Below, in pieces: positions 13,757 through 15,165 of a stretch of 38,060 nucleotides of DNA. The stretch is taken from assembly GCA_030613375.1 (NCBI GenBank), contig JAUWMC010000006.1, positions 1 to 38,060 of the forward strand. Direction: 5' to 3'. The notes beneath the pieces were generated by a model. It made no database searches, had not been told where the DNA came from, and saw only the letters and a list, made by a program, of their open reading frames with translations. The stretch's first letter is position 1. The number at the start of each line of letters is the position of its first letter. The translations under genes and the position numbers were made by a program. Origin of the DNA: Microcaldota archaeon (GTDB taxonomy: Archaea; Micrarchaeota; Micrarchaeia; Anstonellales; Bilamarchaeaceae).

Positions 13757-14500
13757 GTGGAGCGTTCGAATTGTTTAGCGGAAGTCTGTGGAATCCATGC
13801 AGGAGATGGATACTTACGAAATTCTGGATATAAACGAGAATTGGATGTGAGTGGTAATCTAGAAGAAAAATCATATTACGATGGATATGTGGCTCCTCTT
13901 TTTTCGCGAGTGTTTAAACTTGAGGTAAAAACCAGGAGTTTCCCTTCTAGGAGAACATATGGGTTTGTAATAAGAGATAAAACTGCAATTGAAAATATGC
14001 ACGAGGTAGGGTTCCCATATGGAAAAAAAAGTTCTATAGTAAGGGTTCCTGAGTTCGTAATGAAAAGTAAAAATAAATGGGTGAAAGCAGCCTTCCTTAG
14101 AGGTTTTTTCGATACGGACGGGTGCTTGGCGTTTGAAAGGAAACGTGGAAAGTATTGCACATTCAAAAAAACTCATCACTATTACCCTCTTCTCATCCTA
14201 AATACAATCTCGGGGGGATTGGCCAATGACATGGAGATTCTCTTGGAAGAACTTGGATTGCATTTTTGTAGGGAATGTAGGAGACCCAAACAGGAGGGAT
14301 GGAAACCCCTAAACCGGATCTGGTTACGAGGAACCTTTTTTGTAGAATGGATGAAACTGGCGGGTAGCAAAAATCCTTCCAAATTAAGCAGATATCAAAT
14401 ATGGAAGAGATATGGGCACTGCCCCCCAAACACCACATTTGCGGAACGTTTATCAATATTGAGTGGAGAAATTAAGTTGGACCATGGGCCCGTGTGGTAG
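13757..14500 (+). CDS. LAGLIDADG homing endonuclease
   Basis: This 247-residue protein has two LAGLIDADG motifs, so it should act as a monomer that cuts a long DNA site. Motif 1 is LAEVCGIHAGDGYL (7-20, catalytic Asp17) and motif 2 is FLRGFFDTDGCLAF (113-126, Asp121). Both catalytic acids are present and the frame is intact. It starts at GTG 13757 with no Shine-Dalgarno. The last five codons and stop lie within the 5' part of the tRNA-Arg gene (overlap 14486-14500). It is therefore free-standing beside a tRNA, not inside the tRNA's 25-nt intron. A role as a maturase or as a domesticated DNA-binding factor cannot be excluded. Confidence 0.9.
   Translation: MERSNCLAEVCGIHAGDGYLRNSGYKRELDVSGNLEEKSYYDGYVAPLFSRVFKLEVKTRSFPSRRTYGFVIRDKTAIENMHEVGFPYGKKSSIVRVPEFVMKSKNKWVKAAFLRGFFDTDGCLAFERKRGKYCTFKKTHHYYPLLILNTISGGLANDMEILLEELGLHFCRECRRPKQEGWKPLNRIWLRGTFFVEWMKLAGSKNPSKLSRYQIWKRYGHCPPNTTFAERLSILSGEIKLDHGPVW
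14449..14458 (+). promoter_or_regulatory. Candidate tRNA-Arg promoter inside the endonuclease gene
   Basis: TTTATCAATA ends 27 bp before the first base of the tRNA, the normal TATA distance in archaea. It lies within the last 20 codons of the endonuclease gene, so tRNA transcription would start inside coding sequence. Confidence 0.45.
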
Positions 14501-14584
14501 CCTGGATAACCGACAAGGCTTCGGTTGAATAATTTTAAATTCAGAAGAAACCTTGGAACGCGGGTTCGAATCCCGTCGGGCCCG
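14486..14584 (+). tRNA. trnR-UCG: tRNA-Arg(UCG) with a 25-nt intron
   Basis: The cloverleaf folds completely: acceptor GGGCCCG/CGGGCCC, D arm TGGT/ACCG with GG in the loop, anticodon stem CAAGG/CCTTG, T arm GCGGG/CCCGT around TTCGAAT, and discriminator G. After intron removal the anticodon loop is CTTCGGA, giving anticodon UCG (Arg, CGA codons, others by wobble). The mature RNA is 74 nt; CCA is not encoded. The gene overlaps the last 15 bases of the LAGLIDADG gene, and the next ORF opens two bases after it. Confidence 0.93.
14525..14549 (+). other. tRNA intron with canonical bulge-helix-bulge
   Basis: The intron lies after position 37, the commonest archaeal site. A perfect motif is visible: exon stem CAAGG/CCTTG, four-pair central helix CTTC/GAAG, intron stem TGAAT/ATTCA, and three-base bulges GGT and AAA on opposite strands. 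The splicing endonuclease would cut after GG and after AA. Twenty-five bases is too short to encode a protein. Confidence 0.9.
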
Positions 14585-14586
14585 AT

Positions 14587-15165
14587 ATGGAAATTACAGA
14601 AAAGGAATTACAGGAGACATTCTCAAAAATGAAAATCCCGGAAGATATCCGGCTGTTCATGATAACTGAGAAAATGTATGTACGAATATACAAAGGGAAG
14701 GTTACGTGGAAGCTTCTTTCAGAGGAATTTGAGTTTGTAAGGAAGCTCAAATGTGAAAGGGGGGAGATACTGGACTTATTTTCAAAGATGGAGTTCTTGG
14801 TGAATGAGCTTATTCAGCTTAGGATGCTGGGTGCGAATTCAGAAGAGGCAGATAAACTGGATGATGTGGTTGCATACGTGGATTTCTTCAGCAGGCTGAA
14901 ACTTCTTAAGAAATGGGGAATCATAGAGAATAAAACTGTGGAAATGGTGAACCAAACGAAACAGGTGAGGAACGGATTTGCGCATGCCTGGGGAACTGAA
15001 GAGGTTTTGTATAAGGAGAAACCTATTGAGGAGAATTTTGAGAAATTCAAGCATGACATGGAGGAAATCTGGAAAGCGCTAGTTGAGGTTTATTCGGTTG
15101 AACAGAAAAAGTATGATGTTTCAGAGATATTCAAAAGAATACGGGAAGAAAATAAATCAGTTTGA
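14587..15165 (+). CDS. HEPN-like protein encoded directly after tRNA-Arg
   Basis: The protein is helical and has the R-X4-H signature of HEPN RNase domains at 128-133 (VRNGFAHAW), after an alpha-helical stretch (about 57-125) that fits the four-helix HEPN fold. HEPN proteins are often RNases or partners in toxin-antitoxin, anti-phage and RNA-processing systems, and several cut tRNA. ATG 14587 is two bases after the tRNA, leaving no room for a promoter or ribosome site, so the message would come from tRNA 3' processing or from a start further in. ATG 14629 (residue 15) has AGGAG at 14612-14616 and is the alternative. No antitoxin-like gene is adjacent. The HEPN assignment rests on the motif and predicted helices only. 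Confidence 0.75.
   Translation: MEITEKELQETFSKMKIPEDIRLFMITEKMYVRIYKGKVTWKLLSEEFEFVRKLKCERGEILDLFSKMEFLVNELIQLRMLGANSEEADKLDDVVAYVDFFSRLKLLKKWGIIENKTVEMVNQTKQVRNGFAHAWGTEEVLYKEKPIEENFEKFKHDMEEIWKALVEVYSVEQKKYDVSEIFKRIREENKSV

Follow-up and report, generated by a model that had tools for sequence, protein, structure and literature searches.

The window (the whole 38,060-nucleotide stretch of DNA analysed here) is one contig of a 1.16-Mb draft archaeal genome (G000; 93.8% complete). On its forward strand, a LAGLIDADG endonuclease ORF (P0001; 13757–14500; 247 amino acids, with an uncertain GTG start) runs with its final 15 bp, stop codon included, into a tRNA-Arg(UCG) gene (14486–14584), and the start codon of a gene for a 192-residue HEPN-like protein (P0002; 14587–15165) follows 2 nt past the tRNA. 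A previous sequence-only reading had described this geometry (15 bp shared on one side of the tRNA, 2 nt before the next ATG on the other), and the coordinates all hold. The endonuclease ORF matches Pfam LAGLIDADG_3 (PF14528; E = 3.6e-7) and contains two acidic LAGLIDADG motifs: AEVCGIHAGDG (residues 8–18, with catalytic Asp17; 13778–13810), of which GDG is invariant in homologue alignment A3, and FLRGFFDTDG, of which the LRGFFDTDG region (R115, G116, D119 and D121; 14093–14122) is invariant in alignments A1 and A3. Overall, the catalytic acids of GDG (D17) and FDTDG (D119/D121) are invariant or nearly so in the homologue alignments. The structural model (mean pLDDT of 92) has a LAGLIDADG fold; its best PDB match in Foldseek is I-Tsp061I (E = 5.2e-11), and I-DmoI (E = 1.6e-7), bI3 maturase and WhiA are also in the list. 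The predicted structure and the conserved acids appear compatible with an active LAGLIDADG enzyme of the I-Tsp061I/I-DmoI type, and the earlier claim of two LAGLIDADG motifs is borne out by the acidic residues and by the Pfam and Foldseek matches.

The tRNA-Arg gene was detected with Rfam (RF00005, 42.6 bits), as a default ARAGORN run misses it because of its intron. Its anticodon (TCG; 14521–14523) is the only one of its kind among 45 tRNA hits in this 93.8%-complete assembly. The precursor, with a likely intron at 14525–14549, folds as a cloverleaf with a bulge–helix–bulge (BHB) intron at position 37/38 (z = −2.5), confirming the intron-bearing tRNA-Arg(UCG) of the sequence-only reading; the intron position is the same in relatives. 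The tRNA is complete and the endonuclease ORF lies upstream of it, inside neither an intron nor an intein. The D-arm (14495–14512) has an altered stem, TGGT..ACCG, in place of the GCGC..GCGC of the endonuclease-less relative G002, and is probably part of the endonuclease target.

A TATA-like 16-mer, AACGTTTATCAATATT (14445–14460, forward strand), lies within the endonuclease ORF 25 nt upstream of the tRNA. The block is found 25–26 nt upstream of tRNA-Arg in G000, G027, G004 and G005, and with one change in G028; in G004 and G005 it is retained despite the decay of the rest of the endonuclease ORF. This pattern fits a TATA-type promoter element of tRNA-Arg that the endonuclease frame would read through, and its survival of endonuclease decay in relatives lends support to the earlier remark that the tRNA promoter would lie inside the ORF.

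The HEPN-like gene behind the tRNA

P0002 is probably a HEPN protein. Its R-x4-H motif (RNGFAH, residues 128–133; 14968–14985, forward strand) can be read in the sequence, and RNxFAH, a form of R-x4-6-H, is invariant in four homologues. Residues 78–165 match the PADLOC CARF_HEPN profile (E = 2.8e-7), the protein falls under the Pfam cut-off for DUF4145, and HEPN toxins and Cas13b are among its Foldseek matches, although no match reaches significance (none below E = 0.1). The motif noted in the sequence-only reading thus stands, and a HEPN fold is likely at moderate support. Only two other genomes encode a close homologue (identities of 85% and 78%); a further, distant homologue is 28% identical. 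This distant copy (L035, 1441–2159; G005:C15) lies ~75 bp from a convergent tRNA-Arg(CCG) and has no endonuclease beside it.

The HEPN-like gene again begins 2 nt past tRNA-Arg(TCG) in G002 and G004, a contact that is kept in three genomes of one genus only. ORF starts within ~3 nt of a tRNA 3′ end recur in G000 (C55:1278, C65:14486 and C9:5459), and 3′-end processing of a tRNA may therefore yield a leaderless or near-leaderless mRNA for the ORF directly behind it.

The sequence-only reading had linked all three elements, and endonuclease, tRNA and HEPN RNase could be pictured as partners, perhaps in defence or as a toxin with its guard. Such a module would suit the geometry in the window, the intact HEPN motif and the tRNA–HEPN adjacency retained in G002 and G004, but comparison with relatives makes it highly improbable. 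G002 has the HEPN-like gene and the tRNA at this locus without the endonuclease, which already contradicts a module; G004 has both with the endonuclease as a broken remnant; and in G003 and G005 tRNA-Arg has no HEPN-like gene after it. Moreover, the endonuclease by itself sufficed as a query to find ~60 other endonuclease–tRNA pairs, and neither of the other two pairs in G000 has a HEPN neighbour in the flanks viewed. The lone distant homologue of G005 also speaks against the module. The link did not survive these comparisons: on the evidence of G002, G003 and G005 the HEPN protein was rejected as part of the endonuclease–tRNA system, and its gene appears to be a co-directional neighbour outside that unit.

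Endonucleases abutting tRNA genes across the phylum

We searched with P0001 in 99 relatives and then used a 19-row profile in 295 Micrarchaeota genomes, which returned many stand-alone ORFs; 97 loci were taken for tRNA-like matching, of which 95 were testable. A same-strand tRNA-like match lies within −60 to +200 of the endonuclease stop in 62 of the 95 testable ORFs, or 62 of 78 once rRNA-intron ORFs and five unrelated ORFs are removed (among the remaining loci, twelve lie in rRNA genes, a known kind, and five carry another ORF type). Opposite-strand matches in the same interval occur at 10 of the 95 loci, and other 260-bp windows further off give 0–4 hits per strand. The endonuclease ORF often terminates inside the tRNA, where nucleotides T8-A9-G10 of the tRNA commonly supply its stop codon. 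All three such endonuclease genes found in G000 abut tRNAs (Arg, Ala and Gln), and endonucleases 62% and 57% identical to P0001 overlap tRNA-Arg(TCG) in two other genera (G027 and G028). Small, compact genomes might bring ORFs and tRNAs into contact everywhere; this genome is gene-dense, and some of its other ORFs begin directly after tRNAs. Coincidence of this kind is scarcely credible here, however, and is refuted by the survey: the density peak is restricted to the endonuclease stop (62/95 versus 0–4), and ORFs of >200 amino acids in G000 enter a tRNA 5′ end only if they are LAGLIDADG genes. The contact exceeds chance because it recurs across the phylum, and the generality of the endonuclease–tRNA pairing there is strongly supported.

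Several loci have features of their own. At a minority (L041, L043, L045, L052, L111, L115 and L125), the endonuclease ORF reads toward or into the 3′ end of an opposite-strand tRNA, so that some C termini are encoded by antisense tRNA. A tRNA-Phe-linked endonuclease (L049; G011:C15) lies ~100 bp downstream of the RNase P RNA gene. The tRNA-Ala endonuclease ORFs (L013, L046 and L098–L106) are often longer, with open frames of ~330–360 amino acids and an N-terminal extension resembling a helix–turn–helix region. At L110 (G166:C21), a LAGLIDADG ORF sits between the 5′ and 3′ parts of tRNA-Thr, whose ends pair (GCGCAGAAGC..GCTTCTGCGC); this is apparently a ~0.9-kb endonuclease-coding intron within the tRNA-Thr gene. 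A search for viral carriers found just distant relatives (~28% identity), with no tRNA found alongside.

The target of each endonuclease was read from the sequence of its tRNA (Ala, Arg-TCG, Arg-CCT, iMet, Phe, Val, Gly, His, Thr, Asn and Gln). For 66 labelled proteins and these 11 targets, the protein tree requires 15 target changes, whereas none of 200 shuffles needed fewer than 42; the tree was built by a quick method, and the labels of some multi-intron tRNAs are the analyst's reading. As judged from this tree, endonuclease clades follow tRNA isotype, each lineage with its own assigned tRNA. P0001 clusters with the two proteins that overlap tRNA-Arg(TCG) in G027 and G028, and next on the tree is L097, from another family (G166:C93), in which the endonuclease overlaps a degenerate tRNA-Arg(TCG)-like copy that is followed by a second, complete tRNA-Arg(TCG) (2151–2430).

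Occupied and empty sites and altered D-arms

Occupied and empty alleles of one site were found for tRNA-Arg (G000 versus G002) and tRNA-Ala (G005 versus G003). At the tRNA-Arg locus, ~54 bp separate the upstream gene stop from the tRNA in G002, compared with ~800 in the window. In G003, which lacks the endonuclease there, tRNA-Ala(CGC) is one continuous gene, whereas G005 has, in order, the upstream flank, nucleotides 1–15 of tRNA-Ala, the endonuclease, a complete tRNA and the same downstream flank as G003 (G003 1327–1515 matches G005 903–1095, and G003 1500–1596 matches G005 2108–2204), an insertion of ~1 kb within the tRNA gene. The piece left behind, GGGCTTGTAGCTCAG, is canonical, and the rebuilt tRNA (GGGCTTGTAACTCAG..GAGT) has a changed D-stem that is still paired. 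This comparison is our most direct evidence, and its alignment indicates that the insertion landed inside the tRNA gene, supplying it with a different 5′ portion. A similar tRNA-Ala remnant, GGGCTTGTAGCTCAGTAGTA, lies 1,032 bp before the complete tRNA-Ala of G000. These two tRNA-Ala cases hold up in a search for left-behind 5′ fragments upstream of 52 endonucleases, in which the overall distribution equals that of a far-upstream control. Upstream of the window tRNA, no left-behind tRNA-Arg fragment was found, which counts against homing.

Decayed endonuclease sequence persists ahead of tRNA-Arg in G004 and G005, and ahead of tRNA-Ala in G201 and G181; within one genus the gene is present, decayed or cleanly absent. 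A domesticated host gene that serves the tRNA, for example as a regulator or splicing helper, and is kept adjacent for that function would account for the very tight coupling, with bases and promoter region in common; LAGLIDADG maturases do exist, and Foldseek lists bI3 maturase and WhiA. We nevertheless regard domestication as very unlikely, given this patchy presence, decay and clean absence among genomes of the same genus, the conserved catalytic acids and the many linked tRNAs that have no intron.

The D-arm of linked tRNAs is frequently altered. For tRNA-Ala(CGC), a changed D-stem or D-loop insert occurs in 10 of 10 scored linked genes compared with 6 of 22 unlinked ones (Fisher P = 0.00025), although the counts come from related genomes and so are not independent. 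The linked tRNA-Ala of G244, unscored by the script, has a canonical D-arm by eye and counts against homing; its inclusion gives 10/11 versus 6/22 (P ~0.0007, by hand calculation), and restriction to tRNA-Ala found by one pattern only gives 6/6 versus 6/22 (P ~0.0025, by hand calculation). Several different alterations are seen (GTCT, ACTC, GATC, GCAC, GTGT, GTCA and an intron), suggesting that such events happened repeatedly. At tRNA-Arg(TCG), each of the three intact endonucleases (G000, G027 and G028) lies beside a D-stem of the xGGy type, and the stem is GCGC in the remnant-bearing G004 and G005 and in the empty G002; other endonuclease-free genomes are mixed, so that for tRNA-Arg alone the association is weak (3/3 linked versus ~10/27 without endonuclease). 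Altered D-arms without an endonuclease, in 6/22 tRNA-Ala and ~10/27 tRNA-Arg, also count against homing. In G000, the D-arm is changed in all three linked tRNAs: Arg and Ala have stem changes, and the tRNA-Gln behind the third endonuclease (C57) carries a D-loop insert of ~33 nt. D-loop introns accompany some endonucleases (G040 Ala, G028 Arg and G000 Gln). The five genomes with an endonuclease linked to tRNA-iMet have no intron-free tRNA-iMet, but many other genomes lack one as well (18 of 43 have it; P ~0.06, by hand calculation); tRNA-Phe is nearly always interrupted in the family examined and so offers no linked/unlinked contrast. As read from these alleles, an altered D-arm could protect the linked tRNA from cutting.

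Two further observations concern candidate protective changes and their history. The anticodon-loop intron of the window tRNA-Arg is shared by endonuclease-free relatives and was therefore ruled out as the protective change. In G002, an altered tRNA-Ala (L201; C13) that is 97% identical to that of G000 (L072; C55) has neither an endonuclease nor a tRNA fragment; either the endonuclease was lost with the altered allele kept or the altered allele came first.

Probable homing into tRNA genes and its precedents

We consider it probable that the family comprises homing endonucleases that target tRNA genes at the D-arm and travel with a resistant tRNA allele, the HEPN-like gene being a neighbour. 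Now or formerly, the endonuclease would cut alleles of one particular tRNA gene that lack the endonuclease, with the exact cut site presumably in or near the D-arm. Gene conversion from a donor copy would repair the break and copy in the endonuclease ORF together with the adjoining part of the donor tRNA. The tRNA would be rebuilt complete behind the ORF, so that the host keeps an essential tRNA, and the incoming copy would bear compensatory D-stem changes or a D-loop intron that leave it no longer cut. The ORF would then abut the tRNA, and its terminal part would double as the tRNA 5′ end and probably also as the tRNA promoter. The minority of ORFs that face the tRNA 3′ side count against homing. 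The suggestion of the sequence-only reading that the tRNA serves as target, guard or landing site fits the endonuclease, given that the pairing recurs with the same and other tRNAs and that tRNA-Ala offers a filled and empty site, and fails for the HEPN-like gene.

tRNA genes are the classic attachment sites of archaeal integrative elements, and the endonuclease ORFs could instead be cargo or remnants of integrase-borne elements that use them. Integrases do produce a left-behind tRNA fragment and a rebuilt tRNA. We think this unlikely, as the compared inserts are ~0.75–1 kb and hold essentially one ORF, the LAGLIDADG gene, with no recombinase seen; the endonuclease itself follows tRNA isotype; and rRNA-intron members of the same LAGLIDADG family home by themselves. 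SSV and pNOB8 integrase elements likewise use tRNA genes as insertion sites that are rebuilt, but they are large elements with tyrosine recombinases, none of which were seen at the compared loci.

In the open-access literature, to which our search and the novelty of the pairing refer, we came across no account of LAGLIDADG genes lying against tRNA genes in these archaea. The closest precedent is a ~1.9-kb insertion within the tRNA-Thr(GGU) gene of Caldiarchaeum subterraneum (Sugahara et al. 2012, PMC3293823), and the nearest working analogue is phage SegB. The Caldiarchaeum locus resembles ours in retaining a 5′ fragment of the old tRNA, in having an ORF (813 bp) immediately upstream in the same orientation and in its rebuilt tRNA, which gained an intron at 24/25; in contrast, its ORF was described only as a DNA-binding/recombination protein, and the proposed model of the event was integrase-type recombination, an interpretation that favours the integrase reading (PMC3293823). 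It is also a single locus, and its ORF enters the comparison by its published description. SegB of phages T4 and T6 is a free-standing homing endonuclease beside tRNA genes that cuts within tRNA sequences and spreads with them, but it belongs to the GIY-YIG family, is phage-encoded and is not specific to one tRNA isotype, and the available text of these sources describes for it no altered linked tRNA or splice intron (PMC2988022, PMC13096335).

The archaeal rRNA-intron LAGLIDADG enzymes I-DmoI and I-Tsp061I share fold and family with P0001, and rRNA-intron members came up in the same search. Theirs lie inside rRNA introns, whereas here the ORF is outside a complete tRNA gene, the target would be the tRNA and protection would stem from an altered tRNA sequence. 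Collaborative homing (reviewed in PMC2988022) similarly places a free-standing endonuclease beside an intron that may protect the linked allele, but it involves group I introns instead of BHB tRNA introns, and many linked alleles here are stem substitutions with no extra intron.

In reviews, how tRNA introns transpose is described as unknown, and a shielding role of introns against integrating elements is discussed (PMC4090602). For the old question of how archaeal tRNAs gain introns and odd structures, our data offer a concrete enzyme that is physically tied to its presumed target tRNA, and one genus in which the site is found occupied, empty or decayed, along with changes to the tRNA in the region presumed to be cut. 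If homing is correct, the enzymes would form an additional family of natural nucleases with specificity for tRNA genes. The broader proposal, on which we are evenly divided, is that LAGLIDADG endonucleases form a gene-drive-like system throughout the phylum, homing into tRNA genes present in single copy, with recoded or intron-bearing tRNA alleles as protection. If true, such a system would also account for the Caldiarchaeum tRNA-Thr case and would be a general engine of archaeal tRNA intron gain and abrupt D-stem replacement.
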